A stretch of DNA of 64,000 nt from assembly GCA_017480225.1 (NCBI GenBank), contig JAFVBB010000001.1, positions 94,660 through 158,659 on the forward strand. Direction: 5' to 3'. Made by a program: the position numbers and the translations under genes. The notes beneath the pieces were generated by a model. The model saw only the letters and a program-made list of their open reading frames with translations, did not search any database and was not told the DNA's origin. This document shows positions 1,157 to 57,707 of the stretch, piece by piece (within the stretch, counting starts at the first letter, position 1; each line of letters starts with the position of its first letter). Source of the DNA: Bacteroidales bacterium (lineage in GTDB: Bacteria > Bacteroidota > Bacteroidia > Bacteroidales > P3).

Positions 1157-1264
1157 TGTTCTTCGATTGTTCTCCGATTGTTCTTCGATTGTTCTCCGAT
1201 TATAAATCGAAGAACAATCGAAGAACAATCGGAGAACAATCGAAGAACAGACGGCCCTGACACG
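1157..1264 (+). repeat. F1 11-nt-grid hairpin element, copy 1
   Basis: Core 1157-1249: four 11-mers (TGTTCTTCGAT, TGTTCTCCGAT, TGTTCTTCGAT, TGTTCTCCGAT), a TATAA loop at 1201-1205, then four inverted 11-mers (ATCGAAGAACA, ATCGAAGAACA, ATCGGAGAACA, ATCGAAGAACA). 43 of the 44 stem positions pair; the one mismatch is in the innermost unit. After the core only GACGG..CTGACACGGA (to about 1264) resembles the tail of the other F1 copies, so the tail looks decayed here. It sits between a regulator and adk, both on the plus strand. No T-run follows, so it is not a standard terminator. Confidence 0.95.
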
Positions 1265-1299
1265 GAGTCAGCGCTGCCCGGCGGGGGTTGCCGGGCGGG

Positions 1300-1311
1300 C
1301 CGCGCAATAAA
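1300..1311 (+). promoter_or_regulatory. GC-rich AATAAA box upstream of adk
   Basis: CCGCGCAATAAA ends 49 nt before the adk start codon. The same GCRCAATAAA-like box occurs before six other genes in the window. Unlike most of those it has no A/T run upstream. A TTATAAT at 1328-1334 is an alternative promoter element. Function is inferred only from recurrence and position. Confidence 0.35.
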
Positions 1312-1360
1312 GTGGTGGCTCCGCGCGTTATAATCACGAACACAACAAAAACAAGACGCT

Positions 1361-1972
1361 ATGCTCAACATCGTCATCTTCGGCGCACCTGGCGCCGGCA
1401 AAGGCACACAGGCCGACCTTTTGGCCGAGAAATACGACCTGCTGCACATCTCTACCGGCGACCTGCTGCGGCAGGAGGTGGCCAAGGGCTCGCCGCTGGG
1501 GCAGCGGGCGCAGGCCATCATGAACCGCGGCGACCTGGTGGGCGACGACATAGTGGTGCAGCTGCTGGCGCAGGCGCTGCGCGGAGTGGCAGGCGGCGAG
1601 GGGCAGGAGCCCTCGGAATACAGGGGCTGCATCGTCGACGGTTTCCCGCGCACCGTGGCGCAGGCGCAGACGCTGGAGTTCCTGTTCTCGAAGCTGAGGC
1701 TTTCAATCGACGCCATCATTGCCATCGACGTGCCGCGCGACGAGCTGGTGAGGCGCATACACGAGCGCGCCGCCATCAGCGGCCGCGCCGACGACACGGA
1801 GGAGGTCATCCGCCACCGCATAGAGCTCTACGACGAGCAGACGCGTCCGGTGCTCGACTACTATCGCGTCAGCGGGCGGCTGGTCACCGTCGACGGCAGC
1901 GAACAGATAGCCGACACCAACACGCGCATCTGCAAGGTGATGGATGTGTTGCTGCGCGGCGGCAAGCGGTAG
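1361..1972 (+). CDS. adk: adenylate kinase
   Basis: It catalyses ATP + AMP = 2 ADP in the cytoplasm. The 203-residue protein has the P-loop GAPGAGKGT at residues 8-16, the AMP-site H-I-S-T-G-D-L-L-R, the core D-G-F-P-R-T, and the lid-side arginines of R-A-A-I-S-G-R-A-D-D. The lid is of the short, non-zinc type. Compared with the usual ~190 residues of Bacteroidales Adk there is a Gly/Glu-rich insertion (about residues 70-85, before Y-R-G-C-I-V-D-G-F). The start follows an A-rich leader (aacacaacaaaaacaag) typical of the phylum. It appears to be monocistronic; the next gene is convergent. Confidence 0.97.
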   Translation: MLNIVIFGAPGAGKGTQADLLAEKYDLLHISTGDLLRQEVAKGSPLGQRAQAIMNRGDLVGDDIVVQLLAQALRGVAGGEGQEPSEYRGCIVDGFPRTVAQAQTLEFLFSKLRLSIDAIIAIDVPRDELVRRIHERAAISGRADDTEEVIRHRIELYDEQTRPVLDYYRVSGRLVTVDGSEQIADTNTRICKVMDVLLRGGKR

Positions 1973-1979
1973 GCGAGGC

Positions 1980-3128
1980 TCAACGGCCAGCCATCCACTC
2001 GTCGGGGCCGCAGTGCATCACGCGGCGGAAGGCCGCGTCGAAACGGTCGAGGTCGAGAAAACCGCAGCGGTGGGCCAGACGGGTGAGCCCCTCGCGGCCT
2101 GTGTAGCCGCCACCCTCGGCCGATAGCAGCAGCCCGGCGGCATACTCCACACGCAGACCGTCGATGTAGTCGCCGAACTTGCCGCCGCTGAGGTGGTGCA
2201 CACAGTCTATGACGTCATCCTCGGTCATCTTGAGGGTCGACGCAAGCAAGAACACAGAGATGTCGGGGTCAAGGTAGGCCCGGCCGCCCTCCACGTGGTC
2301 GGCCAGCCTGCGCGAGGCCGCCTTGATGTTGTTGCGTGCCAGCACGCGCGCCGGATACTGCGGCAGCCGCTCGGCACCGTAGTCGAGCCTGTAGACATTC
2401 CAGCCGAGCAGCAGCGTCGCCGCCGCCGCCACCGCCGACCACATGGCGGCCGCCCACACCCCCCTGGGCGAGGCAAACGGCCACGCCACGACCAGCACCG
2501 CATAGGAGGCCGCAAGCACCGCCTCGCACACCACCACGCCCCGAGCCCCTGCCGCACGGCGGCTGTTGCCCGCGTAGTAGTTGCCCAGCAGCCTGCCGAA
2601 GCCGCGCAGCCCCCTAAGTCCGGCCACGGCGGCCAGCACCGCCTCGGCCACGGCAACCGTGGCGAAAAGCCAGTAGTGCACGGCCACAATCACATTGTAG
2701 CGCCAGCTGCCCTCATAGAACTCGCCACCGTCGCCAGTGGCCGCGCGCGCCACCCACAGGCGGTACATGTCGGCTCCGCCCACCGCCACCGACGCGGCCA
2801 TGAGCAGGGCCACCGTGGCGGGCACCGCCACAGCCAGCCTGGCCAGCAGCCCCACCCCGCGCGGACGCAGCAGCACAGCCAAGGCGCTGTACATCACCAT
2901 CGGCGTGGCAAGCGCGGCAAGCATGTACATGATCACCAGCAGGTATTCCCCGCACAGGAAGGAATTGAAAAGGGTGCTGTAGAGCAGCATGGTGCAGCCC
3001 GAGGCCATCGACGACCCCATGAGCAGCCATTGCGCGCCCAGCACGCTGCGCTTGAAGAAAATCATGACCACAGGCCATAGCAGCGAAAGCAACCCCAGCA
3101 CGAAATAGCATATGGCCACCGGCGTCAT
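1980..3128 (-). CDS. seven-helix membrane protein with AraC-type DNA-binding tail
   Basis: The 382-residue product has seven hydrophobic segments in its first ~260 residues and no other clear N-terminal domain, followed by a ~110-residue C-terminal segment matching the AraC double helix-turn-helix (D-P-x-I-S-V-F-L-L-A-S-T-L-K-M-T..., G-x-x-F-G-D-Y-I-D-G-L-R-V-E-Y-A-A-G-L-L, L-A-x-x-C-G-F-L-D-L-D-R-F-D-A-A-F-R-R). It is therefore probably a membrane-anchored transcription regulator in which the helices sense something and the tail binds DNA. The start at 3128 overlaps the stop of the neighbouring seven-helix gene (ATGA), which excludes the longer open frame reaching 3446. Ligand and target genes are unknown. 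Confidence 0.75.
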   Translation of the reverse strand: MTPVAICYFVLGLLSLLWPVVMIFFKRSVLGAQWLLMGSSMASGCTMLLYSTLFNSFLCGEYLLVIMYMLAALATPMVMYSALAVLLRPRGVGLLARLAVAVPATVALLMAASVAVGGADMYRLWVARAATGDGGEFYEGSWRYNVIVAVHYWLFATVAVAEAVLAAVAGLRGLRGFGRLLGNYYAGNSRRAAGARGVVVCEAVLAASYAVLVVAWPFASPRGVWAAAMWSAVAAAATLLLGWNVYRLDYGAERLPQYPARVLARNNIKAASRRLADHVEGGRAYLDPDISVFLLASTLKMTEDDVIDCVHHLSGGKFGDYIDGLRVEYAAGLLLSAEGGGYTGREGLTRLAHRCGFLDLDRFDAAFRRVMHCGPDEWMAGR

Positions 3129-3928
3129 GACACGCCTCCTTTCATGCGGCCGCGCATGAGCAGCGCCAACTGCCTGGCGTCGACCCGCAGTGCGAACACG
3201 AAGCGCCCCACCATCCATTGCAGCGCAGAGAGCACCACAGCCGTGCCGATAAGCCAGTATTTGAAGTAGGCCGGGCGCGCCTCGACGAAGTAGAACGTGG
3301 CCGCGGCCAGCGGCAGGAAGCACCACACAACCGCGCTGACGGCACGGCTGTCGAGCTCGCCTCCGCCAACACTGTCGGCATAAAAGGTGTTGTAGCGCAC
3401 GGCAAACAGCCTCACCTTGCAGCCAGCCGCGACAAGCACCGCGCACGAGTTTGCTACAAACAAGGCAGGAAAGACCATGCGGTCAACGACGAGGTGCACA
3501 TTCCAGGCGGCGTCGCCCGGAACCATTGCGGCCGAGCCAGCGCGCCAGGCCTGGCACATGGCCTCGTAGCGCCTGGGGCCAATCGAGAACGATGTGGCCG
3601 TAAGCACCGCCATGAACAGCAACGGCACAGCCATGACCCACCGCTGCCCCAGGCTCACCCCCCTGGGCTCGGCCAGTGAGCACGCCCCAAGAAAGCATAC
3701 AGGCGCGCAGAACAAGGCCGACACCTCAAAGAAATAATCGTAGATGAACAGGCCGCCAGCGCGCCCACGGAAGTAGACGGCCAGCATTGACTCGGAAAAA
3801 GCCATGACCAGCATTGACACCGACAGCAGCAGCTGCGCCCTGGTGGGCCGGCGCGGGAGCAGCACCGTAAGCATTGACCACACCACGCTCACCAGCGCCG
3901 GAACGAAGAGGATGAAGTTCCACTTCAT
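3125..3928 (-). CDS. seven-helix membrane protein lacking a DNA-binding tail
   Basis: This 267-residue protein has about seven transmembrane segments (from F-I-L-F-V-P-A-L-V near the N-terminus to W-L-I-G-T-A-V-V near residue 235) and a short basic cytoplasmic end. Its length and helix spacing match the membrane half of the downstream AraC-tailed protein, and a motif before helix 4 recurs (L-A-E-P-R-G-V-S-L here, L-L-R-P-R-G-V-G-L there), so the two look like tandem paralogues of which only one kept, or gained, the DNA-binding tail. It overlaps ispG by 4 bases upstream and the AraC-tailed gene by 4 downstream. Function is unknown; a partner in a sensory heterodimer is a guess. Confidence 0.65.
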   Translation of the reverse strand: MKWNFILFVPALVSVVWSMLTVLLPRRPTRAQLLLSVSMLVMAFSESMLAVYFRGRAGGLFIYDYFFEVSALFCAPVCFLGACSLAEPRGVSLGQRWVMAVPLLFMAVLTATSFSIGPRRYEAMCQAWRAGSAAMVPGDAAWNVHLVVDRMVFPALFVANSCAVLVAAGCKVRLFAVRYNTFYADSVGGGELDSRAVSAVVWCFLPLAAATFYFVEARPAYFKYWLIGTAVVLSALQWMVGRFVFALRVDARQLALLMRGRMKGGVS

Positions 3929-5070
3929 CGGTGTGCGGCCTCCAGCTGGTCTGACTCTATCAGGCTCACCAGTTCGTCGACGGCGTCGCTTTGGTCAATG
4001 TCGCGCTTGACTATGTCCCTGCCCTTGTAGAGTGTGATTTTGCCCGCGCCCGAACCCACGTACCCATAGTCGGCATCGGCCATCTCGCCCGGGCCGTTGA
4101 CGATGCACCCCATGACGCCGATCTTCACACCGGTCAGGTGTGCGGTGCGCAGCTTGATGTCGTGCAGAGCCTTCTGAATGTCATACTGCGTGCGTCCGCA
4201 CGAGGGGCAGGCGATGTACTCGCATTGTGTGATTCTTGCGCCCACGGCCTGCAGTATGCCGTAGGCCACCGGCATCTCAGCCTCGGGCGGCTCAGTCAGC
4301 GACACACGTATGGTGTCGCCGATGCCGTCGAGGAGCAAGGCACCGATTCCGGCCGCGCTCTTGAGGCGGGCCTGCTCGCCGTCGCCCGCCTCGGTGACGC
4401 CGAGGTGAATGGGGTAGTCCATGCCCATGGCGTGCATCTTGTCGACAAAGAGGCGCGTGCTCTCCACCATCACCTTGACGCTGCTGGCCTTCATGGAGAA
4501 CACCAGCGAGTGGAAATCACGCCCCGCGCACACCTGCGCGAACTCCAAGGCGCTTTGTGCCATGCCCTCTGGCGTGTTGCCGTAGCGGCTCACCACACGC
4601 TCGCTGAGCGAGCCGTGGTTGGTGCCAATGCGCATGGCGGTGCCATGGGTCTTGCAGATGTCAATGAGACGGCCCATGCGGTCGCCTATGCGGAGCAGCT
4701 CGTCGTTGTATTCCTGCTCGGTGAACTCGGTGCGTCCGGTGTTGCGGTCGGTGTAGTTGCCGGGGTTGACGCGCACCTTCTCCACCAGCGCGGCGGCCAC
4801 CTCGGCAGCCTTGGGGTTGAAATGGATGTCGGCCACCAGCGGCACATCGCACCCCCGGCGCAGCAGTTCGTCCTTTATGCGCCCCAGGTTCTCGGCAGCA
4901 CGTACATCGGGAGCCGTAATCCGCACCAGCTCGCACCCGGCCTCGACCATACGCAGAGCCTGCTCCACGGTGGCGCGGGTGTCCATTGTGTCGGTGTTGG
5001 TCATGCTCTGCACGCGCACCGGCGCGCCGCCACCCATGGCCAGACGGCCTATCATCACCCGGCGGCTCAT
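3925..5070 (-). CDS. ispG: 4-hydroxy-3-methylbut-2-enyl diphosphate synthase (short form)
   Basis: This [4Fe-4S] enzyme converts MEcPP to HMBPP in the MEP isoprenoid pathway. The TIM-barrel start (P-V-R-V-Q-S-M-T-N-T-D-T) and the C-terminal cluster domain with C-P-S-C-G-R-T and G-C-I-V-N-G-P-G-E supply the three cluster cysteines. The protein is 381 residues. Bacteroidota enzymes known to me are about 600 residues, with an extra central A* domain; here the barrel passes straight into the cluster domain after E-P-P-E-A-E-M-P-V-A although the flanking motifs look Bacteroidota-like. It overlaps genes on both sides by 4 bases (ATGA). The other MEP gene in the window is dxs at 33.7-35.6 kb. Confidence 0.96.
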   Translation of the reverse strand: MSRRVMIGRLAMGGGAPVRVQSMTNTDTMDTRATVEQALRMVEAGCELVRITAPDVRAAENLGRIKDELLRRGCDVPLVADIHFNPKAAEVAAALVEKVRVNPGNYTDRNTGRTEFTEQEYNDELLRIGDRMGRLIDICKTHGTAMRIGTNHGSLSERVVSRYGNTPEGMAQSALEFAQVCAGRDFHSLVFSMKASSVKVMVESTRLFVDKMHAMGMDYPIHLGVTEAGDGEQARLKSAAGIGALLLDGIGDTIRVSLTEPPEAEMPVAYGILQAVGARITQCEYIACPSCGRTQYDIQKALHDIKLRTAHLTGVKIGVMGCIVNGPGEMADADYGYVGSGAGKITLYKGRDIVKRDIDQSDAVDELVSLIESDQLEAAHR

Positions 5071-5426
5071 GAGATGCGGGCAATGGTGCGCTGCAGCGAG
5101 AGCACCTGGCTCTTGAGCTGCTTTATCTGGTCCTGAAGGTTGGCGTTCTGGCTGCGCAGGCGGCGGTTCTCCTCTATGAGTTCCAGCTGCGTGGGCTCGC
5201 GCCGCTCTTCCTTGGCCTTCTTCACCGCACTGCCTATTGTCTCATCGTTGAAGGCCTTGGCAACACCCTGCTGGTCGGCCATCCTTATCAGCTCGCCGGG
5301 GGCGAATGGTATGTCGAACCCCGTCTCGTCCTCGACGTAGACGCGCCCATCCTCCACCCTCTTCACGATGCCGCCTCCCACCGAGTTGAGGAACTTAACC
5401 TTGTCACCTATGTTGAATTGCTGCAT
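5067..5426 (-). CDS. DUF2027-like small protein with SH3-like fold and coiled coil
   Basis: The chosen start (M-Q-Q-F-N-I-G-D-K-V-K-F) gives 119 residues. Residues 4-45 match the N-terminal part of Bacteroidota DUF2027 proteins (G-D-K-V-K-F-L-N-x-V-G-G-G-I-V, then G-F-D-I-P), and residues about 75-115 form a coiled coil (E-L-I-E-E-N-R-R-L-R-S-Q-N-A-N-L-Q-D-Q). The family is usually around 300 residues or more, so this is a short version in which a coiled coil replaces the remaining domain. It overlaps ispG by 4 bases and lies 26 bp after mpl, so it is probably co-transcribed with both. The function is not known. Confidence 0.8.
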   Translation of the reverse strand: MQQFNIGDKVKFLNSVGGGIVKRVEDGRVYVEDETGFDIPFAPGELIRMADQQGVAKAFNDETIGSAVKKAKEERREPTQLELIEENRRLRSQNANLQDQIKQLKSQVLSLQRTIARIS

Positions 5427-5452
5427 GTTTATGTCGTTTTTAGTGGTTTCTG

Positions 5453-6796
5453 CTATAGTATCTCGTCGGCCAGGGCCGCAAAGTCGATGCCGTCGAAGTT
5501 GCCGCTGCTCATCATGAGCAGGTTGGTGTTCTCCCACCGCTCGGCCTTGACGCGCGCCACCAGCGCCGCGCTGTCGGAGAAAACCTCTACGCCGTCGCCG
5601 AATGCCCTGGCCACATTGGCCGGGTCAAGGGGAGGCAGCTTCTTCAGCCGCAACGCATGATTGCTGAAGTAGACGAGGCGCACATCGGCCTGATCCATCG
5701 TGTGGGCATACTGCACAAGGAACTCCTGAGTCAGCGAGCTGAACGTATGCAGCTCCATGCAGGCTACCAGCCTGCGGCCAGGATACTGCTCACGCATGGC
5801 CGCCACGGTGGCGCGTAGCTTCGAAGGGGCATGGGCGAAGTCCTTGTAGACTGCACAGCCTGCCGTTTGCTTCACCAGTTCGAGCCGCTTGCTTGCGCCA
5901 CGGAAGCTGGCTATGGCCTGGTCGAACTGGCGGTCGTCGACGCCGACCGTGCGGCAGGCCAGCCGCGCGGCGGTGAGGTTGAGCAGGTTGTGGCGGCCAA
6001 AAACCCCCAGGCGCGTGCCGCCGATGACGGTTACGCCGTCCTCGACACTGTAGTCCGGGCAGCGATAGGGCAGCTTGCTGATGTCGCCACGCCTGTTCTC
6101 GGCGACCACACGGCGCACCTCCGCATCCTCGTCGCAGTATATCAGCGTGCCGCCGGGCTCCACCAGGTCAATAAACTTTGCGAACTGGCCGCGATAGTCG
6201 TCGAAGGTCGGGAACACATTCACGTGGTCCCACTCAATGCCGGTGACGATGGCCACGTGCGGATGGTAGAGGTGCATCTTGGGCCTGGGGTCGAGCGGCG
6301 AGGTGAGGTACTCGTCGCCCTCCACCACCATCACCCTGGCCGTGTCGGAGAGGCGCACCATCACGTCGAAGCCCTCCAGCTGCGCACCCACCATATAGTC
6401 GGCCTCGATGCCCACACACCGCAGCACATGCAATATCATGGCCGTGGTGGTGGTCTTGCCGTGCGAGCCCGCCACCACGATGCGCTTCTTGTCTTTCGAC
6501 TGCTCGTAGAGGTACTCCGGGTAACTGTAAATCTTCAGCCCAAGTTCGCGGGCACGCAGCAACTCCGGGTTGTCGGCGCGGGCGTGCATACCCAGCACCA
6601 CAGCGTCGAGGCCAGCGGTAATACGCTCCGGGTGCCACCCCATGGCGTCGGGCAGCAGGCCGCAGGCGGCCAGCCTCGAGCGCGCGGGGTCGAATATCTC
6701 GTCGTCGCTGCCAGTCACCTCCACCCCCTTGCGGGCAAGCGCAATGGCCAGGTTGTGCATGGCCGAGCCTCCGATAGCTATAAAATGGACTTTCAT
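5453..6796 (-). CDS. mpl: UDP-N-acetylmuramate:L-Ala-gamma-D-Glu-meso-Dap ligase
   Basis: A cytoplasmic Mur-ligase relative that reattaches the recycled murein tripeptide to UDP-MurNAc using ATP. The 447-residue protein begins with the nucleotide-fold H-F-I-A-I-G-G-S-A-M-H-N-L-A, carries the ATP loop G-S-H-G-K-T-T-T-T at about residues 110-118, the E-G-D-E-Y carbamylation-region motif, and Mpl-type features (F-A-H-A-P-S-K-L-R-A-T; H-T-F-S-S-L-T). A start at 6796 is preferred over the longer open frame because it begins exactly at the conserved domain and lies 44 nt after an AATAAA box. It is the first gene of the mpl-DUF2027-ispG-7TM-7TM run. Confidence 0.95.
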   Translation of the reverse strand: MKVHFIAIGGSAMHNLAIALARKGVEVTGSDDEIFDPARSRLAACGLLPDAMGWHPERITAGLDAVVLGMHARADNPELLRARELGLKIYSYPEYLYEQSKDKKRIVVAGSHGKTTTTAMILHVLRCVGIEADYMVGAQLEGFDVMVRLSDTARVMVVEGDEYLTSPLDPRPKMHLYHPHVAIVTGIEWDHVNVFPTFDDYRGQFAKFIDLVEPGGTLIYCDEDAEVRRVVAENRRGDISKLPYRCPDYSVEDGVTVIGGTRLGVFGRHNLLNLTAARLACRTVGVDDRQFDQAIASFRGASKRLELVKQTAGCAVYKDFAHAPSKLRATVAAMREQYPGRRLVACMELHTFSSLTQEFLVQYAHTMDQADVRLVYFSNHALRLKKLPPLDPANVARAFGDGVEVFSDSAALVARVKAERWENTNLLMMSSGNFDGIDFAALADEIL

Positions 6797-6839
6797 CGCC
6801 TCCAATGTTGAGTTTGCACAGAAACGCGACGCGCCGCCA

Positions 6840-6866
6840 TTTATTGCGCGACGCGCCATAAAAAAA
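6840..6866 (-). promoter_or_regulatory. T-run plus AATAAA box upstream of mpl
   Basis: Read on the minus strand: a run of seven T, then ATGGCGCGTCGCGC, then AATAAA, ending 44 nt before the mpl start. The same layout occurs before the genes starting at 8583, 36596 and 42323. No TAnnTTTG box is visible here. Promoter role is inferred. Confidence 0.4.
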
Positions 6867-6920
6867 GCTCAGAGTGAACGCCTGCCGGCAAGCCGGAGGC
6901 ACAGACGGGGATGCCCGCGG

Positions 6921-7799: not shown

Positions 7800-7803
7800 G
7801 CCT

Positions 7804-8583
7804 TTAGAAGTACTCTATCTGCCTCACGGTGGTGTAGGTGGGGAGCATACGGTCGCCCAGCATGTCGTATTCGGTGCAGGTGGTCCAGTTGCCGTGCGAG
7901 TCGTACTCGCGGCGATAGATGGTCACGCTCATCTCCGGCTCCTCCTCGGTGTAGTCATAGAGGGTGTAGCTGGTGGGGTAGCCCTTGTCGTCGTATTCCC
8001 AGCGCTTCTCCTGCACCTTCTGCCGCGAGCGGTCGTAGACCACGGCCTTCTGCACCGTGCCGTCGGGGTTGAAGGTGTACACCTCGCGCTTGAAGACGTT
8101 GTTGCGGTGGTCGTTGAACGAGCGCTGGCTGATGCGACCCTCCTTGTCGTGAGCCAGCAGCAGGCGGCTCTCCACCTGGCGCTCGGCGTCCTCCACGTAA
8201 ATCTCGGTCAGCGTGAGGTCGGCGTTGTAGACGTAGTAGGTGCGCCCCACCACATCCTCGCGGTTGTCGACGATGTGCTCCAGCGTGGTGAGCCCGAAGC
8301 CGTCGTGCTTGTAGCGGGTGCGGAAGATGACATCCTCGGCCACCGACAGGTAGGTCTGTGAGCGGCGCTGCCCGTTCTGCTTGTATTCGGTCACCAGGTG
8401 CTCCAGCTGCTCGCCGCGCTCCAACTGGTCGCGCAGGTTGAGGTGCGCCTCGTACATCACCGCGTCGATGCGCTTCACGCTGCCGTGCAGCTCGTCGTCC
8501 TGGCGGTCGCGCCCCGTCTGCGCCGCCGCGCCGCCGCACAGCGCCAGCGCGGCCATTATGGCAACAAATCTGTCTATCCTCAT
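7804..8583 (-). CDS. secreted protein of unknown function with YD-like repeats
   Basis: The 259-residue product starts with a clean signal peptide (M-R-I-D-R-F-V-A-I-M-A-A-L-A-L-C-G-G-A-A-A-Q, cleavage after A-Q-T probable). The rest is rich in Tyr/Asp/Lys turns such as Y-D-D-K-G-Y-P-T-S-Y and Y-D-S-H-G-N-W-T-T-C that resemble single YD/RHS-like beta-hairpin units, as found in many periplasmic or outer-surface proteins of this phylum. No catalytic motif is evident. It lies 4 bp before era, which may only reflect shared transcription. An AATAAA box ends 46 nt upstream of its start. Confidence 0.7.
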   Translation of the reverse strand: MRIDRFVAIMAALALCGGAAAQTGRDRQDDELHGSVKRIDAVMYEAHLNLRDQLERGEQLEHLVTEYKQNGQRRSQTYLSVAEDVIFRTRYKHDGFGLTTLEHIVDNREDVVGRTYYVYNADLTLTEIYVEDAERQVESRLLLAHDKEGRISQRSFNDHRNNVFKREVYTFNPDGTVQKAVVYDRSRQKVQEKRWEYDDKGYPTSYTLYDYTEEEPEMSVTIYRREYDSHGNWTTCTEYDMLGDRMLPTYTTVRQIEYF

Positions 8584-8655: not shown

Positions 8656-8702
8656 ATGTCCCTGCCCCTAAAAAACACCTCATGCGGCAGCCCAAAGCCA
8701 TG

Positions 8703-8856
8703 TCAACAACTACTCAAATACCTGTCAACACCATATCATCGCCTACAAAAGTAAGCGATGAGTAGGCGTTGGGTAGTAGATGAGTAGGAGTTGAGTAGGA
8801 GTTGGTCTATACTTGAGGTTGATTTACAAGCACTTATTTACCGACTTATTACCCCC
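8703..8856 (+). repeat. F2 11-nt-grid element, copy A
   Basis: Left units TCAACAACTAC, TCAAATACCTG, TCAACACCATA, TCATCGCCTAC; loop AAAA at 8747-8750; right units GTAAGCGATGA, GTAGGCGTTGG, GTAGTAGATGA, GTAGGAGTTGA, then GTAGGAGTTGG, TCTATACTTGA, GGTTGATTTAC and two more blocks ending in TACCCCC. The innermost pair is nearly complementary, while the outer left units are degenerate. It occupies the gap between two minus-strand genes and is oriented against them. The remainder of the 8584-8964 gap holds an AATAAA box and a terminator. Confidence 0.92.
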
Positions 8857-15419: not shown

Positions 15420-15573
15420 GCACAAATCTAACCCCCGCATAAGAGGCAGCAAATCAACGCATAAGCCATACCAACTCCTACTCAACTCCTACTCATCAAC
15501 TACCCAACGCCTAATCATGCACTTCATATGTAGGCGATGACAAGTAGTTGTATAGAGCATGACATGCTGTTGA
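15420..15573 (-). repeat. F2 11-nt-grid element, copy B
   Basis: Minus-strand order: degenerate left units at 15541-15573, TCATCGCCTAC (15530-15540), loop ATAT, then GAAGTGCATGA, TTAGGCGTTGG, GTAGTTGATGA, GTAGGAGTTGA, GTAGGAGTTGG (15471-15481), TATGGCTTATG, CGTTGATTTGC and the tail. It aligns without gaps to the other F2 copies over 154 bp, but its last blocks have changed into a TAGATTTG promoter-like box. It lies in the divergent gap between DUF2156 and the GH29 gene. Confidence 0.9.
15423..15453 (-). promoter_or_regulatory. Bacteroidota-type promoter towards DUF2156
   Basis: Minus strand: TTTG at 15453-15450, 19 bp, TAGATTTG at 15430-15423. This matches the -33/-7 consensus. It would give a leader of about 200 nt before the gene at 15215 and lies in the tail of F2 copy B. 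Confidence 0.5.
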
Positions 15574-15654
15574 CACAGCCCTGCCGGCGGGCGGAGGGGT
15601 GGATGCGGGCGGGCAAAGTTATCAACACCGGGGCGGGGATTGCCTTTTTTTGCG

Positions 15655-20772: not shown

Positions 20773-20851
20773 CTTTTTTTCACTTTTTTTCGAACCTCAC
20801 CCACCCTCCATCATCGCGCCCAGGAGGCAGGAGCAAGGCCTCCGCGCAGTG

Positions 20852-21005
20852 TCAACAACATACCAACATATTGCCAACACAATATCATCGCCTGCTCGAG
20901 AAGTAGATGACAAGGTGTTGGGTAGTCGATGAGTAGGAATTGAGTAGGAGTTGGTGCTTATTTATGGCTGATTTCCAGGCTTTTCGCAACGTGGCTTTTA
21001 CCCAC
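20852..21005 (+). repeat. F2 11-nt-grid element, copy C
   Basis: Left units TCAACAACATA, CCAACATATTG, CCAACACAATA, TCATCGCCTGC; loop TCGA; right units GAAGTAGATGA, CAAGGTGTTGG, GTAGTCGATGA, GTAGGAATTGA, GTAGGAGTTGG, TGCTTATTTAT, GGCTGATTTCC and tail to TACCCAC. It sits between rocD and the divergent ABC gene, pointing at the latter. It is the most diverged right arm of the family. Confidence 0.88.
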
Positions 21006-30390: not shown

Positions 30391-30463
30391 CTACTGCCCC
30401 GAGCCACGTCTGCGCCGCGCCAAAGCCCCTCCACACGGGCTTGAAAACAGCCTCAAAGCCGTG

Positions 30464-30617
30464 ACAATCACTATTCATTGACTGGCCAACTACTTGTCAT
30501 CGCCTACAAATGTAGTTCTTGATTAGTAGTTGGGTAGGCGATGAGTAGGAGTTGAGTAGGAGTTGGTCTTGCCTCAACACTGATTTACAGTTGGTTGCGA
30601 ATATGACTATTACCCCC
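30464..30617 (+). repeat. F2 11-nt-grid element, copy D
   Basis: Left units ACAATCACTAT, TCATTGACTGG, CCAACTACTTG, TCATCGCCTAC; loop AAAT; right units GTAGTTCTTGA, TTAGTAGTTGG, GTAGGCGATGA, GTAGGAGTTGA, GTAGGAGTTGG, TCTTGCCTCAA, CACTGATTTAC and tail to TACCCCC. It lies between two plus-strand transcription units, 150 bp before the dnaB promoter, in the same direction. The innermost left unit is complementary to the third right unit (GTAGGCGATGA) rather than the first. Confidence 0.9.
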
Positions 30618-36699: not shown

Positions 36700-36850
36700 T
36701 GTTCTTCGATTGATGTCCGATTGTTCTTCGATTGTTCTCCGATACAAAATCGAAGAACAATCGAAGAACAATCGGAGAACAATCGAAGAACAGACGGTGT
36801 TGACACGGACCTAGTGCCCAGTCAGTACTGAAAATGAGCAGGTTACAGGC
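36700..36850 (+). repeat. F1 11-nt-grid hairpin element, copy 2
   Basis: Core 36700-36792: left TGTTCTTCGAT, TGATGTCCGAT, TGTTCTTCGAT, TGTTCTCCGAT; loop ACAAA; right ATCGAAGAACA, ATCGAAGAACA, ATCGGAGAACA, ATCGAAGAACA. Tail 36793-36850 begins GACGGTGTTGA, CACGGACCTAG and contains CTGAAAATGA. It lies in the 36597-36931 gap between two minus-strand genes and points against them. Two mismatches are in the second stem unit and one in the fourth. Confidence 0.95.
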
Positions 36851-42374: not shown

Positions 42375-42424
42375 GCACTCCGCCGCCGCTGTCGGGCCGC
42401 CGCCGCGCAAGCGCCAGGGTGCTG

Positions 42425-42578
42425 TCAAGCACATGGCAAACCCAAGTCAACACCATACCAAGACCTACAGAAGTAGCGGTTAACAAGGAGATGGGTAGTA
42501 GATGAGTAGGAGTTGAGTAGGAGTTGGTCTATCCTTAAGGCTGGTTTGCAGCCACTTACGCGCGCACATTCTACCCTC
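42425..42578 (+). repeat. F2 11-nt-grid element, copy E
   Basis: Left units TCAAGCACATG, GCAAACCCAAG, TCAACACCATA, CCAAGACCTAC; loop AGAA; right units GTAGCGGTTAA, CAAGGAGATGG, GTAGTAGATGA, GTAGGAGTTGA, GTAGGAGTTGG, TCTATCCTTAA, GGCTGGTTTGC and tail to TACCCTC. It lies in the divergent gap between the TonB receptor and gyrA, pointing to gyrA and ending about 64 bp before the gyrA -33 box. Stem complementarity is partial. Confidence 0.9.
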
Positions 42579-49359: not shown

Positions 49360-49510
49360 TGTTCTTCGATTGATGTCCGATTGATGTCCGATTGTTCTTC
49401 GATTATAAATCGAAGAACAATCGGAGAACAATCGAAGAACAATCGAAGAACAGACGGTGTTGATATGGACTCAATGCCTCTTCAGTACTGAAAATCACGC
49501 CATTACATGC
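49360..49510 (+). repeat. F1 11-nt-grid hairpin element, copy 3
   Basis: Core 49360-49452: left TGTTCTTCGAT, TGATGTCCGAT, TGATGTCCGAT, TGTTCTTCGAT; loop TATAA; right ATCGAAGAACA, ATCGGAGAACA, ATCGAAGAACA, ATCGAAGAACA. Tail to 49510 starts GACGGTGTTGA, TATGGACTCAA and contains CTGAAAAT. It lies between clpC and the MATE gene, same direction, about 105 bp before the MATE -7 box. Five mismatches lie in the two middle stem units. Confidence 0.95.
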
Positions 49511-51970: not shown

Positions 51971-51994
51971 GATGAAGATATTAGGGGGAGGTTG

Positions 51995-53062
51995 CTAAAA
52001 GCGGTAGCAAAGGGTGATGTGGTTAGGAGCCTGCGACAGGTGGTAGTTGCGCCTGGCATAGCTCACCTCGAAGCGGCGCGTGCGCAGGCCGAGGCCGAAA
52101 GAGAAACCACTGATGTTGAGGGCGTCGAAGCCGCGCATCTCGGCACTTTGGCGATAACTGTAGCCCACACGGGCAAAGAAAGAGCGCCCCAGGTTGAGCT
52201 CGACACCGGCCTGCGCGTGGCGCATGGCGTTGTCGATGGTGGCGGCCAGCCAGCCACGCTCGGTCACCTCGCCGCTGAAGGGGTCGACGGTGCTGTTAGG
52301 ATGCAGCGGGTCGTCGTAGTCAAGCCTCCAGCGCGAGAGTTCGTTGAGGGCGAAGAACAGGCGGAACGGCGCGCGTTTCAACTTGTAGCTAACCTCCGCG
52401 CTCAACTCGCCCGGCAGGCGCTCGCGCTTTTGGTCGAATGTGGTGAGCTGCGCGCCGATGTTGCGGAGCATGAGGGTGGCCGTCAGCGTGCGCTCGGTGT
52501 TGGTGTAGCTGGCCGCCACGTCGAAAGCCACAGTCAAGGCCTTGTAGCTCTCGTACTGCGAAAGCACCGGCTTCATCTGCGCGCCGAAACTGAAGTTGCT
52601 GTCGAGCCACATCCCCCACCCCACCGACAGTGCATAGTCGGCGGCGGCAAATGCGCCTTGCGGAGTCCCCTGCTCGTCGTAGGCCGCGAAGCGCCCATAG
52701 TTCACGAAGTGGAAACCCAGCGAGAGCGTGCCCAGCCTCTTGCTGTGCATGATGTAGCCCAGCGAGCCCATATTGGAACCTCTAAACAGCGGCACGTAGC
52801 TGGCAGTGACGCTTCCGGCCATGGCCTGGCGCAGCATGGACGGGTTGGAGAGTCCAGCCACAGGGTCGTCGGTGAACAGCGGCAGGTAGTCCAGCCCCAG
52901 GGCGGCGGTGCGTCCGTACGTGGTCAGGTCGAGCACGGCCAGCGTGTTCATGCCCGCCACCTGCGCCCCGGCCACTCGTGGTTGGCACAACAAAAAGTGG
53001 AAAGCCATGCCGACGAATATCGGCACAGTGGCTTTCCACCATTGTCTGCTTGTTGTAGGCAT
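51995..53062 (-). CDS. porQ: type IX secretion system protein PorQ
   Basis: A 355-residue outer-membrane beta-barrel protein of the PorV/PorQ group. Signal sequence (W-W-K-A-T-V-P-I-F-V-G-M-A-F-H-F-L-L-C, cleavage near A-G-A-Q), then the family opening A-V-L-D-L-T-T-Y-G-R-T-A-A-L-G, a P-S-M-L motif and barrel strands to the terminal H-I-T-L-C-Y-R-F. PorQ works with the type IX sorting machinery that anchors CTD-bearing proteins. The start at 53062 shares one base with the kamA stop (TAATG), excluding the longer frame to 53188. No other T9SS gene is in the window. Confidence 0.9.
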   Translation of the reverse strand: MPTTSRQWWKATVPIFVGMAFHFLLCQPRVAGAQVAGMNTLAVLDLTTYGRTAALGLDYLPLFTDDPVAGLSNPSMLRQAMAGSVTASYVPLFRGSNMGSLGYIMHSKRLGTLSLGFHFVNYGRFAAYDEQGTPQGAFAAADYALSVGWGMWLDSNFSFGAQMKPVLSQYESYKALTVAFDVAASYTNTERTLTATLMLRNIGAQLTTFDQKRERLPGELSAEVSYKLKRAPFRLFFALNELSRWRLDYDDPLHPNSTVDPFSGEVTERGWLAATIDNAMRHAQAGVELNLGRSFFARVGYSYRQSAEMRGFDALNISGFSFGLGLRTRRFEVSYARRNYHLSQAPNHITLCYRF

Positions 53063-54312
53063 TATCTCTGTTTGTTGCGCTCGTGCCTCATCAAATGTGA
53101 GGGTTCGAGGGCCATGCGGTCGGTCTCGAGCAGCGAGGCAACGCCCTCGTCCACACGGCGCTTGGCCTGACAGGCTTCGCAGTGGCAATCCTCGTGGTAC
53201 TCGCGCGGTTCGGTATAGGTGGTAATCACACCCTCGAAGTTGCGAAGTATCACCTTGTCCGGGCTTTGCGAGATGACGTACTGCGGCATCACAGGGGTCT
53301 TTCCACCACCACCAGGCGCGTCGACCACAAAGGTGGGCACCGCATAGCCGCTGGTGTGTCCGCGCAGGTTCTCGATAATTTCTATGCCCTTGCTTACCGG
53401 GGTGCGGAAGTGCTCAAGGCCCATCGACAGGTCGCACTGGTAGATGTAGTACGGACGCACACGGTTGCGCACCAGCTCATGCATGAGCTTCTTCATCACG
53501 TGCACGCAGTCGTTCACGCCGCGCAGCAGCACAGTCTGGTTGCCGAGCGGTATGCCCGCGTTGGCAAGGCGGGCAAGAGCCTGCTCGGCCTCGGGGGTCA
53601 TCTCGTTGGGATGGTTGAAGTGTGTGTTGAGCCACACAGGATGGTACTTCTTGAGCATGTCGCACAGCTCGGGCGTGATGCGCTGCGGGCAAACCACAGG
53701 GGTGCGGCTGCCAATGCGCACAATCTCCACATGCGGTATGGCACGCAGGCGCTGAATGATGTACTCCAACTTCTTGTCGCTCACCATCAGAGCGTCGCCA
53801 CCAGAGAGCAGCACGTCGCGCACCTCGGGCGTACGCTCTATATAGGCAAGGCACTTCTCGATGCGCTCGCTGGGGCTCTCGTCGTCTTTCTGCCCGGCGA
53901 AGCGGCGGCGGGTGCAGTGACGGCAGTACATGGAGCACATGTCAGTGATGAGGAAGAGCACACGATCCGGATAGCGGTGCGTCAGTCCCGGTGCCGGCGA
54001 GTCCTCGTCCTCGTGCAGCGGGTCGTCGAGGTCGGCCGGGGCAATGTTGCACTCCGGGCCTGCGGGTATGGCCTGCCTGCGTATGGGGTCGAATGGGTCA
54101 TTGGGGTCAATCAGGCTCAGGTAGTAGGGCGTGATGGCCATGCGGAACTTGCCCAAGGCCTGCTTGATGCCCTCGGCCTCTTCCTCACTGAATGAGAAGT
54201 AGCGGCTCAACTCCTCGTAGGTCTCTATGCGGTTCTTGACTTGCCATTTCCAGTCGTTCCACTCGGCGTCACTCACGCCGGGGAACAGCTCTTTTCTGCG
54301 GTTTACTTTCAT
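53062..54312 (-). CDS. kamA: lysine 2,3-aminomutase
   Basis: A radical-SAM/PLP enzyme that converts L-lysine to L-beta-lysine, first step of the 3-keto-5-aminohexanoate lysine fermentation. The 416-residue protein has the cluster motif C-S-M-Y-C-R-H-C (C126, C130, C133), the PLP-lysine region P-G-G-G-G-K-T-P-V-M-P-Q-Y, I-S-Q-S-P-D-K-V-I-L-R-N-F-E-G and a C-terminal zinc-type C-H-C-E-A-C. All known essential residues are present. kdd, another enzyme of the same path, lies 2 kb upstream on the same strand; lysine 5,6-aminomutase, kce and kal are not in the window. Confidence 0.95.
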   Translation of the reverse strand: MKVNRRKELFPGVSDAEWNDWKWQVKNRIETYEELSRYFSFSEEEAEGIKQALGKFRMAITPYYLSLIDPNDPFDPIRRQAIPAGPECNIAPADLDDPLHEDEDSPAPGLTHRYPDRVLFLITDMCSMYCRHCTRRRFAGQKDDESPSERIEKCLAYIERTPEVRDVLLSGGDALMVSDKKLEYIIQRLRAIPHVEIVRIGSRTPVVCPQRITPELCDMLKKYHPVWLNTHFNHPNEMTPEAEQALARLANAGIPLGNQTVLLRGVNDCVHVMKKLMHELVRNRVRPYYIYQCDLSMGLEHFRTPVSKGIEIIENLRGHTSGYAVPTFVVDAPGGGGKTPVMPQYVISQSPDKVILRNFEGVITTYTEPREYHEDCHCEACQAKRRVDEGVASLLETDRMALEPSHLMRHERNKQR

Positions 54313-54338
54313 ATTTCTGACTATTGTAGTTCGTTACA

Positions 54339-55967
54339 TTATTCTTTGTCCATCACCAGCCTGACTCCGAAGCCAAAGTGGTTGTCATACGAGAAGGACG
54401 GGTTGGAGGTCGACGCCTCCACCCTCAACGCCCGGGGCTTGCCGTCTGTCTGCGACGCTGACCAGTAGTAGCAGAAGCTGTCGTTTACAAAACCATTGCC
54501 GTTGCGCAGCCCTGTGTTAGGCAGGAACACAACGCCGCAGTCCTCAAGCTGGCGCAACTCGTCGGTCGTCAACGCTGTGGAGGCAAAGGGTACGCCGGCT
54601 TTGTCCAGGTTGCTCTTGGAGAATGACACCACCCCGGGATCGATGAAATTGTCCGGGAAAATGATGATGCCGCAGATTGACGATCCAACCTTCACCTTGC
54701 AGTAATGCACACCGCTATTGCTGCCCACAGTGGCGCCCGTACGGACGGAGAGAATGTACTGCCATTCTTTACTGGTGAGCGTGCGCCAACGGTTTGGCTT
54801 GTTGCCGCCGTTCACTATCGGGTTGCGCCCCCAGTCGGTGTTCTCGTCGAGCGACTCGCCGTCAGGCCCGAAAGTGTCCTCGGCCGAGGTCGACACTGGG
54901 TCGGTGACGCGCCCTTCGATGGGGAAGCCATTAGTGCCCCAGCCGAACAGGCCCACCTTCTCCGCACCGCTGTAGTCTGCGGCCACATTGCCGGTCTCCA
55001 CCACCGTGCTCTGGTCCTCTTGGAACGCCCACTTGCCGTCGGCAATGGTGTAGTAGAGGTTGCCTTTCGAGAAGTAGACCTGGCGGCCCGCCTCCACAGA
55101 GAAGGCATATACATCCCTCACCCGCTCGTTGTCGGCGCGGAAGTCGACCTGCGCCGTGGCCATCACGTTGCGGCCAAGCGCGGGCATGGCGGCCGTGTGG
55201 GTGAACACCGTGCGCACCACATCGCCGTGCACGCCGGCCTCCGCCGTGTGGGTGAATATCGATATTGTGATGTCGCCCGCCGCAATCGGCAGTATCGGCA
55301 CCTGCACATCAGTCACACTGCCCGCCACCAGCCCGGCACCGTCGAAGAGCACACTCACGCGCCGCTCCGATTCCTTGGTGCTTGACGCCGGCGTCAGCCC
55401 CAGGTCGGCCGCACCGAGGTTTATCCTCCTGGCGGCAGTGTTGAGCTGCTGCGTGGCGCTGGCCACCACCACCGAGTCGAGCATGATGTCGTGACCCATG
55501 CTGTTGCGCACCCGCACGCAAACCGCGGCGCTGATGTGCCTGAACACAATCGTGCCCTCGTCGGCGTCGCCCATGGCCGCCATGGGCAGCGCTATGACCT
55601 GCCTGCCGTCGGCAAACCACGAACTGAACGTCCGCGGGAAGACTATTGCGGGCTGACCCAGGGTGGCATGAGAGAGGAACGTGCCTGCCGGATAGAAGCC
55701 GTACACCGTGCCGCTGCCGCTGAAGCCCTCGGCGTAGGCCACGCCCCCGTCGAGCGTCACCGCGTATTCCTGGTTGTTGAGCAGCACACGGTCGCCGTCG
55801 ACCCAGTACACCTTGTCGGCGGCCACCGCAGTCTTCTGCTGGCCCGCGAACTTTTCCGTGCCAAGCACGAGGCCTCTGCCCTCGGCGGGCTTGTCCTTGG
55901 TGCACGAGGCGAAGGCCGCCAAGGCCGCCACCAGTAGCACACAGTAATGGAAACATCTGCCAGTCAT
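54339..55967 (-). CDS. surface lipoprotein, fimbrillin-like with FISUMP-like C-terminus
   Basis: A 542-residue lipoprotein (lipobox A-A-F-A-S-C, K-D-K follows). The first ~280 residues show the beta-rich pattern of Bacteroidales fimbrillin-like proteins (Y-W-V-D-G-D-R-V-L-L-N, G-T-V-Y-G-F-Y-P-A, I-A-L-P-M-A-A-M-G, F-R-H-I-S-A-A-V-C-V-R-V-R). The C-terminal ~240 residues have features of the FISUMP domain (W-R-T-L-T-S-K-E-W-Q-Y-I-L, Y-Y-W-S-A-S-Q, G-F-G-V-R-L-V). Likely exposed on the cell surface; ligand unknown. It lies between a 66-residue protein gene and kamA, 26 bp before the latter. Confidence 0.8.
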   Translation of the reverse strand: MTGRCFHYCVLLVAALAAFASCTKDKPAEGRGLVLGTEKFAGQQKTAVAADKVYWVDGDRVLLNNQEYAVTLDGGVAYAEGFSGSGTVYGFYPAGTFLSHATLGQPAIVFPRTFSSWFADGRQVIALPMAAMGDADEGTIVFRHISAAVCVRVRNSMGHDIMLDSVVVASATQQLNTAARRINLGAADLGLTPASSTKESERRVSVLFDGAGLVAGSVTDVQVPILPIAAGDITISIFTHTAEAGVHGDVVRTVFTHTAAMPALGRNVMATAQVDFRADNERVRDVYAFSVEAGRQVYFSKGNLYYTIADGKWAFQEDQSTVVETGNVAADYSGAEKVGLFGWGTNGFPIEGRVTDPVSTSAEDTFGPDGESLDENTDWGRNPIVNGGNKPNRWRTLTSKEWQYILSVRTGATVGSNSGVHYCKVKVGSSICGIIIFPDNFIDPGVVSFSKSNLDKAGVPFASTALTTDELRQLEDCGVVFLPNTGLRNGNGFVNDSFCYYWSASQTDGKPRALRVEASTSNPSFSYDNHFGFGVRLVMDKE

Positions 55968-55980
55968 GCCTCAACCATCT

Positions 55981-56181
55981 TTAGAACCACGAGTCTTCAT
56001 ACCCCCCCCAATAGCCACCGTCCTGCCGTTGGCTCTCAATGCTGTCGTCCTCGGTCGAGCCTCCCTTGAGGAAACCCGGCATGGGCATACTCATCGAATA
56101 ACCCATTTCGCTGCGGAAGCTGACGGTGATAAGCCTCGGGGCCTCGTAGCGGCGTTTTATTTTGTCGTCTGCGGTGGTCAT
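55981..56181 (-). CDS. small protein next to surface lipoprotein
   Basis: A 66-residue protein (start M-T-T-A-D-D-K-I-K-R-R-Y-E-A-P-R at 56181). It has the pattern Y-E-A-P-R-L-I-T-V-S-F-R-S-E-M-G-Y-S followed by a Gly/Ser/aromatic tail (G-G-Y-W-G-G-Y-E-D-S-W-F), seen in many short Bacteroidales genes beside fimbrillin-like lipoproteins. No signal peptide or membrane segment is evident. A start at 56283 would overlap kdd's stop by one base and give 100 residues with a less family-like N-terminus. Function is unknown; see findings. Confidence 0.6.
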   Translation of the reverse strand: MTTADDKIKRRYEAPRLITVSFRSEMGYSMSMPMPGFLKGGSTEDDSIESQRQDGGYWGGYEDSWF

Positions 56182-56282
56182 AACTGTCGTGGAGGTTGCT
56201 GTGTTTGTAACTTCAACTAACGCGGGCGGCACGCCCTTTTGAACCTGCCGGCAGGTCGCCCCGCCGGCAGATTGGGTTGCCA

Positions 56283-57356
56283 TCAGGCATAGAGCTCCTC
56301 GAAGATCTTGCGCAGCTCGGGGCTCTCGCGCAGCTCTTGCAGCGTGAACTCGGCGTGGCCCTTGGTGTAGCCGTTGCCGATGATCATGTTGGTGTCGGCG
56401 CCGATGCCTTCAGCACCGAGGGCAGCCTTGGTGAAGCTGGTGGCCATGGAGAAGAAGTAGACGATGCCGTCGTCCTTCGTGCAGAGCACGGCGGTCATCT
56501 CCTGGTCGGGCACATTGACGCAGTTGATGGTCACGTCGGCCATCTTGCCGTCGGTGAGGCGCTCCACCATCTCGTACACCTGCACCGGGGTCATTCCGGC
56601 AGCGCTCTCCACCACATCGCAGAAGCCGAGGTCCTTGATGCGCTGGGTGCTCTTGGGGCTGTTGGCGATGCCTATCACCTTGCCGGTGACGCCGACGCGC
56701 TTCTTGGCCTCATAGCAGCAAAGCATACCGCTCTTGCCGCCTGCGCCGAGGATGACCACCGTCTGGCCATACTGGCAGAGCTTGGCGGTCTGCGCGGGGG
56801 CACCGGCCACGTCGAGGGCGCTCAGGGCCAGCTTCTCGGGCATGTCGTCGGGAATCTTGGCATAGATGCCGCTCTCGAAGAGGATGGCCTTGCCCTTGAT
56901 GTCGACCTGGTCGATGGAGGGGCGGATCTCAAGAATCTCGTCGATGCGCAGCGGCGTGAGCGAGAGGCTCACGAGGGTGGCTATGCGGTCGCCCTCCTTG
57001 AGGTCGATCTTGCCCTTCAGCGCGTCGCCTATCTTCTCCACCTTGCCCAGCAGCATACCGCCCGAACCGGTGCGGCGGTTGCGGTGCTTGCCCTGCAGCT
57101 CCACGTTGAGCAGCATCTCTTTCTTCACCTCCTCCATCACACGCTCCTCGCTTGCGCCCTCGCCAGCCTGCTGCTTGGCGTAGTTGTGGATGTCGGTGAA
57201 CGACGCGGAGTCAATGTTCAGGGTCTGCACATCGATAAGGATCTCGTTGTCGTAAATCTCGTCCATGTTGTTGTCGAGCTTGTTTGCCGGCTGCGGCAGG
57301 ACACCCTTCGGCTCAATGACGCGGTGAGTACCGTACTTGTTACCTTTTTTCTGCAT
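56283..57356 (-). CDS. kdd: L-erythro-3,5-diaminohexanoate dehydrogenase
   Basis: A 357-residue NAD(P)-linked enzyme that deaminates L-erythro-3,5-diaminohexanoate to 5-amino-3-oxohexanoate in lysine fermentation. The fold is of the zinc-alcohol-dehydrogenase type; the N-terminus K-Y-G-T-H-R-V-I-E-P-K-G-V-L-P-Q and the nucleotide site V-V-I-L-G-A-G-G-K-S-G-M-L are typical of Kdd. Upstream on the same strand is a clear promoter; downstream come a 66-residue gene, a lipoprotein gene and kamA. The pathway neighbours kamDE, kce and kal are missing from the window, so the fermentation genes are dispersed or split. Confidence 0.9.
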   Translation of the reverse strand: MQKKGNKYGTHRVIEPKGVLPQPANKLDNNMDEIYDNEILIDVQTLNIDSASFTDIHNYAKQQAGEGASEERVMEEVKKEMLLNVELQGKHRNRRTGSGGMLLGKVEKIGDALKGKIDLKEGDRIATLVSLSLTPLRIDEILEIRPSIDQVDIKGKAILFESGIYAKIPDDMPEKLALSALDVAGAPAQTAKLCQYGQTVVILGAGGKSGMLCCYEAKKRVGVTGKVIGIANSPKSTQRIKDLGFCDVVESAAGMTPVQVYEMVERLTDGKMADVTINCVNVPDQEMTAVLCTKDDGIVYFFSMATSFTKAALGAEGIGADTNMIIGNGYTKGHAEFTLQELRESPELRKIFEELYA

Positions 57357-57423
57357 TGTGAATGTTGTTTATTATGTTAATTATTAGTTTATTTTGCTGC
57401 CTTGAACACACCTGTCAGCACCG

Positions 57424-57455
57424 CAAAGATACGCAAAATCCTCCAATCGGCCAAA
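57424..57455 (-). promoter_or_regulatory. kdd promoter
   Basis: Minus strand: TTTG at 57455-57452, 20 bp, TATCTTTG at 57431-57424, then about 67 nt to the start at 57356. It is the best -33/-7 pair in the window. Confidence 0.85.
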
Positions 57456-57556
57456 CATTTTTGCAAACGCCGCGACAATACCCCCTGCAAAACACTGCTT
57501 AACCGCTGGCAGTCAGCGCAATCGTAGCACAGAGGAGTGCAAAACACAAAAACAGG

Positions 57557-57707
57557 GCACATAACAGCCTCATTTTCAGCGCCTGCAAAGCATCAAGTCC
57601 GTATCAACACCGTCTGTTCTTCGATTGTTCTTCGATTGTTCTCCGATTGTTCTTCGATTTTGAATCGAAGAACAATCGGAGAACAATCGGACATCAATCG
57701 AAGAACA
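57557..57707 (-). repeat. F1 11-nt-grid hairpin element, copy 4
   Basis: Minus-strand order: TGTTCTTCGAT (57707-57697), TGATGTCCGAT, TGTTCTCCGAT, TGTTCTTCGAT; loop TCAAA; ATCGAAGAACA, ATCGGAGAACA, ATCGAAGAACA, ATCGAAGAACA (57625-57615); tail GACGGTGTTGA, TACGGACTTGA, then CTGAAAATGA, to 57557. It lies between mnmE and kdd, both minus strand, so it points along transcription. The rest of the 57357-57783 gap holds only the kdd promoter. Confidence 0.95.

Follow-up and report, generated by a model that had tools for sequence, protein, structure and literature searches.

Short repeats dispersed between genes have been described in several bacterial groups. REP sequences have stems of 5-13 bp with a GTAG or CGTC tag (PMC3733652), and in the mosaics that they form, the BIMEs, including BIME-1, IHF is reported to bind between REPs and gyrase to bind as well (PMC2817692, PMC6379681). 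BrickBuilt, a miniature inverted-repeat transposable element (MITE) of Porphyromonas gingivalis, consists of a leader and a tail, a 23-nt unit in 19 copies, terminal inverted repeats and, in some cases, target duplications (PMC4596501). These and the later literature statements are drawn from extracts of the cited papers. In this work we focused on 64,000 nt of a Bacteroidales genome (GCA_017480225.1, contig JAFVBB010000001.1, positions 94,660 to 158,659; hereafter the window). The window carries four copies of a long hairpin built from inverted 11-mers, named F1, and five copies of a second family of 11-mers, F2 (GTTGAGTAGGA and kin), whose left arm is decayed (Table 1). F1 and F2 are best explained as two sequence families within a single class of intergenic array, made of 11-bp units, in which the period and the spacing are kept and the unit sequence is not.

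The four F1 hairpins lie where the first-pass annotation of the window had placed them. Each has 44-nt arms of four 11-mers around a 5-nt loop, with 1, 3, 5 and 3 of 44 arm positions mismatched in the four copies, and the left-arm unit orders ABAB, ACAB, ACCA and ACBA that it had listed were found again. Its ungapped alignment of three copies also held, copies b, c and d aligning over 146-163 nt at 84-86% pairwise identity. That annotation had considered that a genome search might return only these copies, and F1 turned out to be a large family. In the whole genome (2,053,254 bases, 2.05 Mb, in 22 contigs, 97.6% complete) the F1 unit-pair pattern occurs, with at most 2 mismatches, at 371 forward and 386 reverse sites, versus 0 for its reversed control. 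Similarity searches of the genome gave 143 first-look places for F1 and 61 for F2, 40 of which were scored in each case. A profile search of contigs C1 and C14 and the window, which together make up 631 kb or 31% of the genome, found 43 F1 and 22 F2 elements, 65 together, and by extrapolation a genome would hold about 200 arrays.

The 11-nt grid, to which the annotation had drawn attention, proved to be the key property. When the same 631 kb were scanned for self-similarity at lags of 4 to 24 nt (30/44 matches), many arrays were obtained only at lag 11 (62 places) and its double, lag 22 (48 places); there were none at lags 7, 10 and 13, two at lag 12 and at most three at any other lag. The 11-nt periodicity extends over 106-160 bp in F1 arrays. 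F1 units are near-identical across the 43 places, whereas their flanks differ. Arrays of both families decay toward one end, unit conservation being 0.97-1.0 on the tail side and 0.89 (F1) or 0.67-0.72 (F2) on the far side, and F1 looks younger than F2. A segment of the F1 tail, GTTGATATGGA, lies on the same 11-nt grid and resembles a unit type found in other species, CTCCGTATCAA (reverse complement TTGATACGGAG); from this likeness, F1 may have overwritten an older array. Clustering of the 231 array records from all sources gave 52 unit clusters, including a T run. Two clusters, of F1 and F2 type, hold 117 of the 231, a share inflated by places recorded from two or more loci and by the retrieval of loci through an F1 or F2 match. 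The dinucleotide GpC has half its shuffled frequency in the 52 unit words (11 versus 22).

For placement, genes were called in this genome and in its relatives with a codon-score script of our own in place of a standard caller. Of the elements in the 631 kb, 63 are flanked by genes on either side, and none of these lies within a called gene; the first-pass annotation had suggested a test for such an intergenic bias. Divergent gene pairs flank 31 of the 63 (F2 17/21, F1 14/42), compared with 49 of 213 among intergenic regions of at least 60 nt. Where 200-600 nt are free, an element is present in 25/33 divergent and in 20/36 other regions, so the divergent excess is partly due to region length. 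This bears on the idea that the arrays are insulators or regulatory sites, separating the supercoiling or the regulation of flanking, often divergent genes. Besides the excess in this genome, the idea can draw on that in relatives, where 33 of 62 arrays lie between divergent genes versus 65 of 313 intergenic regions, a figure obtained without length matching. As the excess is largely one of region length, and a regulatory role leaves the 4-kb exclusion described below unexplained, we consider it unlikely.

The elements keep a distance from one another. The 62 centre-to-centre gaps in the 631 kb have a mean of 9.7 kb, a coefficient of variation (CV) of 0.38 and a minimum of 4908 bp. In 20,000 draws matched for contig, orientation class and length class, the CV was 0.82 (lowest 0.55), the largest minimum gap 2436 bp, and 18.1 gaps below 4.9 kb were expected (lowest 6), where none was observed. 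The floor is similar for F1-F1 (4987 bp, 26 pairs), F1-F2 (4908 bp, 29 pairs) and F2-F2 (5424 bp, 7 pairs) neighbours. This similarity argues against a spacing produced by deletion between homologous copies, an explanation that was dropped. On the other contigs, among the matches listed, 80 elements define 67 gaps, none below 4 kb, where a uniform null expects 18.3 (lowest 7); contigs with a single listed element (C5, C16, C19) were excluded, and missing elements can only lengthen gaps. A prior forecast of a minimum gap of at least 4.5 kb on these contigs failed, as 3 of the 67 gaps measure 4.06-4.41 kb.

Neutral satellites, which would expand through slippage in long intergenic stretches and be purged where harmful, would match the strictly intergenic placement in this genome, the preference for long regions, the turnover of units and the separate 7-nt arrays of relatives. 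Slippage has, however, no preference for period 11 over 10, 12 or 13, and it offers no source for an exclusion of at least 4 kb common to unlike units; disfavoured by the spacing, this account appears quite improbable.

An exclusion distance is also what mobile repeats with target immunity would leave. Tn7 and Mu show immunity near their own ends, and a transposase or copying enzyme could likewise spread arrays into long intergenic DNA while being kept from inserting less than about 4 kb away from an array already present, the even spacing being a by-product. Near-identical F1 units with differing flanks at 43 places, the younger look of F1, the exclusion distance itself and the preference for long intergenic regions would all fit. 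On the other hand, no target-site duplication was found (k = 2-6, 8 and 9; 43 F1 and 22 F2), counts being within 1 of mismatched controls. Exclusion between F1 and F2 is as strong as within each family, and unlike units occur at the gyrA place, described below, more often than length predicts. Moreover, among the three mobile-enzyme families searched, which do not cover other transposases, neither a Y1 transposase/RAYT (PF01797) nor a Phage_int_SAM_5 integrase is encoded in this genome. A RAYT is likewise absent from array-bearing G019, G040, G049 and G056, two of which are less than 90% complete, while 9 of the 15 genomes searched have one. We regard target immunity as somewhat unlikely. The genome has one gene with a reverse-transcriptase domain (contig C20, 76410-77003). 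Spread by reverse transcriptase was set aside, none being found in array-bearing G001, G004, G022, G040 and G049; so was phage carriage, viral contigs containing 0 exact matches to the one pattern used for each family.

F1 matched 8 of 99 genomes searched, all of one genus, and F2 matched 14 of 99, of the same genus, with this genome counted among the matches in both cases; the relatives named in the gyrA comparison are mostly uncultured Bacteroidales, many of them derived from ruminants. Stretches of 120-140 kb were taken from six same-genus genomes (G022, G048, G012, G040, G049 and G045), picked for having matches and not at random. They contain 14, 16, 9, 9, 7 and 9 arrays at lag 11, respectively, 0-1 each at lags 10, 12 and 13, and 0-10 at lag 7. 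Only 1 of the 64 pooled arrays lies within a called gene. Their 57 gaps, for which arrays less than 1 kb apart (e.g. two in G022) had been merged, have a CV of 0.64 versus 0.94 in a null that was not length-matched (P = 0.0003), and 1 gap is below 3.6 kb where the same null expects 13.8. Outside the genus, 11-nt arrays were found neither in the 16 readable of 20 stretches from other families (28/44) nor in seven Flammeovirga and Hymenobacteraceae loci; of the same-genus sample stretches, 16 of 20 were readable. Within the genus, genomes with a dnaB identity of at least 79% have 13 arrays in 221 kb (10/19 genomes), those at 68-71% 1 array in 200 kb (1/12) and those at 67% or less 1 array in 87 kb (1/7), counts that lean on the surroundings of dnaB and mnmE, where arrays are frequent. 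G040 and G049, at 67% dnaB identity, carry 9 and 7 arrays in their own stretches, and the trait splits the genus. Arrays of period 7 (TTTTCAA or GTCAGCA types) occur in relatives (L255, L268, L298 and the G040 and G049 stretches, L193-L206), partly inside called genes.

The same place can hold different units in different species. Of the 39 same-genus loci that could be used, 16 have an 11-nt array upstream of gyrA, and these arrays belong to 12 unit clusters. At other lags there are none at 10, 12, 13 and 15, one each at 8 and 9, three at 14 and seven at 7. The 39 loci are those of 44 that remain after leaving out L254, L262, L270, L285 and L303, which have too little upstream DNA; four of these (L254, L262, L270 and L303) nevertheless show an array upstream of gyrA. 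The species are not independent, L279 and L280 being near-identical. Plain array density predicts 0.015 arrays per gyrA locus. Since arrays prefer long intergenic regions, a length-matched control was used: 16 of 35 regions delimited by our gene caller contain an array, versus 4.7 expected from like-length intergenic regions of the same loci. In the window, the gyrA array lies between divergent genes, well 5' (by eye) of TATCTTTG, which we take to be promoter-like. The idea that 7-nt arrays substitute for 11-nt arrays at this place was set aside: of the 39 loci, 4 carry a 7-nt array alone and 13 an 11-nt array alone, both kinds are present in 3, and 19 lack either, and elsewhere the 7-nt arrays lie partly within called genes. 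An array (28/44) is also found upstream of dnaB in 10 of 20 loci with at least 79% identity, this genome included, and in 0 of 10 loci at 68-71%, and at the 3' end of mnmE in 4 of 30 loci, with four different units. For dnaB and mnmE the sides were assigned from coordinates and the counts have no length-matched control. A second, diverged dnaB-like gene (42-58% identity) is present in G009, G014, G030, G037, G040, G048 and G055.

The first-pass annotation had proposed that the hairpin might give rise to a processed double-stranded RNA, and the four window copies of F1 do fold extremely well (-38 to -49.8 kcal/mol as DNA, z -12.8 to -16.8, with 0 of 200 shuffles folding as well for each copy). 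Other observations do not support a functional RNA hairpin. The F1 arms show no covariation, 100 of 144 unit pairs being concordant versus a shuffled mean of 97.9 (standard deviation 1.7, maximum 106), with 11 unit forms in the far arm and two in the tail-side arm and with 36 of the 43 copies in register. Folding of F2 is weak, 2 of its 5 window copies doing no better than shuffles, several arrays in the same genus consist, as judged by eye, of direct repeats and form no hairpin, and about half of the elements sit between divergent genes. As 22 of 35 gyrA-upstream regions of relatives are co-directional according to our gene caller, transcription over the arrays is possible there. Rfam gave 0 matches at the gathering score within the window; with this and the lack of arm covariation, RNA hairpins or double-stranded RNA units were set aside as very improbable. 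Because the F1 arms lack covariation and F2 folds weakly, the hairpin looks like a secondary by-product of array construction, and the phased array like the feature that is kept.

In alignments, both F1 and F2 are followed by CTGRTTTWCAG-N4-TTA, which we take to resemble the IHF consensus, and the genome has two HU/IHF-family genes. A matrix built from 57 of the 65 sites scores at least 8 bits beside 34% of the 64 relative arrays, compared with 14% of the 135 intergenic regions used as controls (P = 0.001).

Phased arrays of this size find their strongest precedent in the E. coli gyrase motif, which covers 130 bp with two 47-bp arms and a 10.75-bp GC period (PMC6379681). They might thus be strong gyrase or wrapping sites, about 130 bp of DNA being wrapped by the GyrA C-terminal domains as at E. 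coli gyrase sites and BIME-2. Array length, period and the spacing of nearly 10 kb would agree with this, but the first GC harmonic of the units is 1.24 versus 1.47 in shuffled units (z -2.4), the opposite of what the motif needs, and of the harmonics only the third exceeds its shuffled level (z 2.3). With the GC alternation of 10-11 bp below its shuffled level, gyrase wrapping was rejected as a candidate and seems improbable.

We favour, tentatively and well short of thinking it probable, the explanation that the arrays are same-face protein docking sites organising the chromosome. A signal that is bound to phase, spaced and loose in sequence points to a role at the level of DNA. Each array would be a multivalent docking site for a putative protein, bound once per helical turn, so that the DNA, being underwound, would carry all the bound copies on the same face; an HU/IHF-type bend site may lie next to the array. 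With a spacing of about 10 kb and a minimum distance of some 4 kb, the set of arrays would split the chromosome into loops or supercoil domains. New unit families would spread over old sites and replace the unit sequence, which would be replaceable because phase and place are what counts. There are precedents for the period, ParR of plasmid R1 binding 11-bp repeats (PMC9426499), and for the spacing, supercoiled domains measuring about 10 kb (PMC9144111). A bolder proposal, which we consider doubtful, is that of a chromosome ruler: the clade would keep phased 11-bp arrays at minimum distances and at partly set places, anchoring loops and recognised by their period instead of their sequence, with unit families replaced like centromere satellites.

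Several observations weigh against docking arrays. The motif shared by the 52 cluster units is weak (5.55 bits, versus a mean of 5.19 and a maximum of 5.58 in 40 shuffled sets), which is awkward for a single sequence-specific binder; one binding motif common to all units was rejected as marginal only. GC phasing below the shuffled level (z -2.4) speaks against bending by phase. The four window copies of F1 match the IHF-like motif poorly, their best sites having 4-7 of 14 mismatches, and the motif is only modestly enriched elsewhere. Reuse of the gyrA place is about 3.4-fold after length matching, not the 27-fold given by plain density, and an array is in any case frequent in long intergenic regions, being present in 45 of 69 regions of this genome that have 200-600 nt free and in 30 of 109 long regions of the six relatives. 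In some relatives arrays lie close together, at 343 bp in G022 and at 2.5 kb in G045, and in G049 lag 7 exceeds lag 11 (10 versus 7 places). Finally, the near-absence of arrays from part of the genus indicates that such a chromosome can manage without them.

If docking arrays are the right explanation, a dispersed repeat that is free in sequence and keeps its period and spacing would represent a new type of bacterial signal for organising the chromosome, one that turns over like satellite DNA in a genome of 2 Mb. The genus contains both array-rich and array-poor species, which offers a natural comparison for finding the protein, and the arrays allow a direct test of whether sequence sets supercoil domains of about 10 kb.

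The elements of the window and their surroundings are given in Table 1. The repeats in the open reading frame at its end are consistent with an internally duplicated ATPase and look ordinary.

Table 1. Arrays, flanking motifs and one repeat-containing open reading frame in the 64,000-nt window
Feature	Coordinates	Strand	Description
F1 copy a	1157..1304	+	Hairpin 1157-1249, arm ABAB, and start of tail; LytTR response regulator gene on one side, adk on the other
F2 element	8701..8856	+	Weak hairpin; divergent gene pair; 11-nt units e.g. GTTGAGTAGGA, GATGAGTAGGA, GTTGGGTAGTA
F2 element	15432..15575	-	Divergent gene pair
F2 element	20850..21005	+	Divergent aminotransferase / ABC transporter genes
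F2 element	30462..30617	+	dnaB upstream; several relatives have a different 11-nt array there
IHF-like flanking motif, dnaB F2 element	30580..30597	+	1/14 mismatches
F1 copy b	36700..36849	+	Hairpin 36700-36792, tail on 11-nt grid; close to radA-like gene
F2 element	42423..42578	+	gyrA upstream; other 11-nt array there in 16/39 usable relative loci
IHF-like flanking motif, gyrA F2 element	42541..42558	+	1/14 mismatches
F1 copy c	49360..49509	+	Hairpin 49360-49452, tail; 3' of Clp ATPase gene
F1 copy d	57558..57707	-	Hairpin 57615-57707, tail; immediately 3' of mnmE
Open reading frame	59623..62385	-	920 aa; two direct repeat pairs of ~90 nt, 59919/60951 and 60517/62275

The first-pass annotation had not recognised the hairpins as a named repeat, and no fitting one was found here either. 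Among the open-licence papers listed, judged by title and the start of the abstract, none describes a repeat with these features, and a paper on prokaryote satellites (PMC6749651) has no match to Bacteroid- or 11-bp terms. The arrays resemble the REP/BIME sequences of enterobacteria and pseudomonads in being hundreds of intergenic, palindrome-bearing mosaic repeats. They differ in their fixed 11-nt period with a changing unit, in their exclusion distance and in the lack of a Y1 transposase in the genome; without the cognate RAYT (PF01797), identity with REP/RAYT systems was rejected. The 44-nt arms of 11-mers in F1 are also longer than the 5-13 bp described for REP stems, and by eye no GTAG or CGTC tag lies outside the stem in the consensus, although GTAG occurs inside F2 units.

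With BrickBuilt the arrays share the order Bacteroidales and the form of an intergenic minisatellite in a repeated frame. Their units are nevertheless of 11 nt and not of the 23 nt reported. No target duplications were found in excess of mismatched controls, and identity with a MITE was rejected on this ground. As to terminal inverted repeats, the hairpin lies inside the element and the two ends of the consensus show no likeness by eye, three mobile-enzyme families having been searched. The parC-type centromere of plasmid R1, bound by ParR, resembles the arrays in its tandem 11-bp sites, as far as the extract describes it. It is, however, one site per plasmid with one unit, whereas the arrays form, by extrapolation, about 200 chromosomal sites with dozens of units across the genus, a number of sites that argues against a plasmid-type parC site. 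An 11-bp period also characterises the genome-wide bias due to class A flexible patterns, for which the idea of protein sites has been put forward (PMC1242344). In the extract of that paper the bias is diffuse and degenerate and covers up to half of a genome; the arrays described here are, in contrast, discrete elements of about 60-160 bp.

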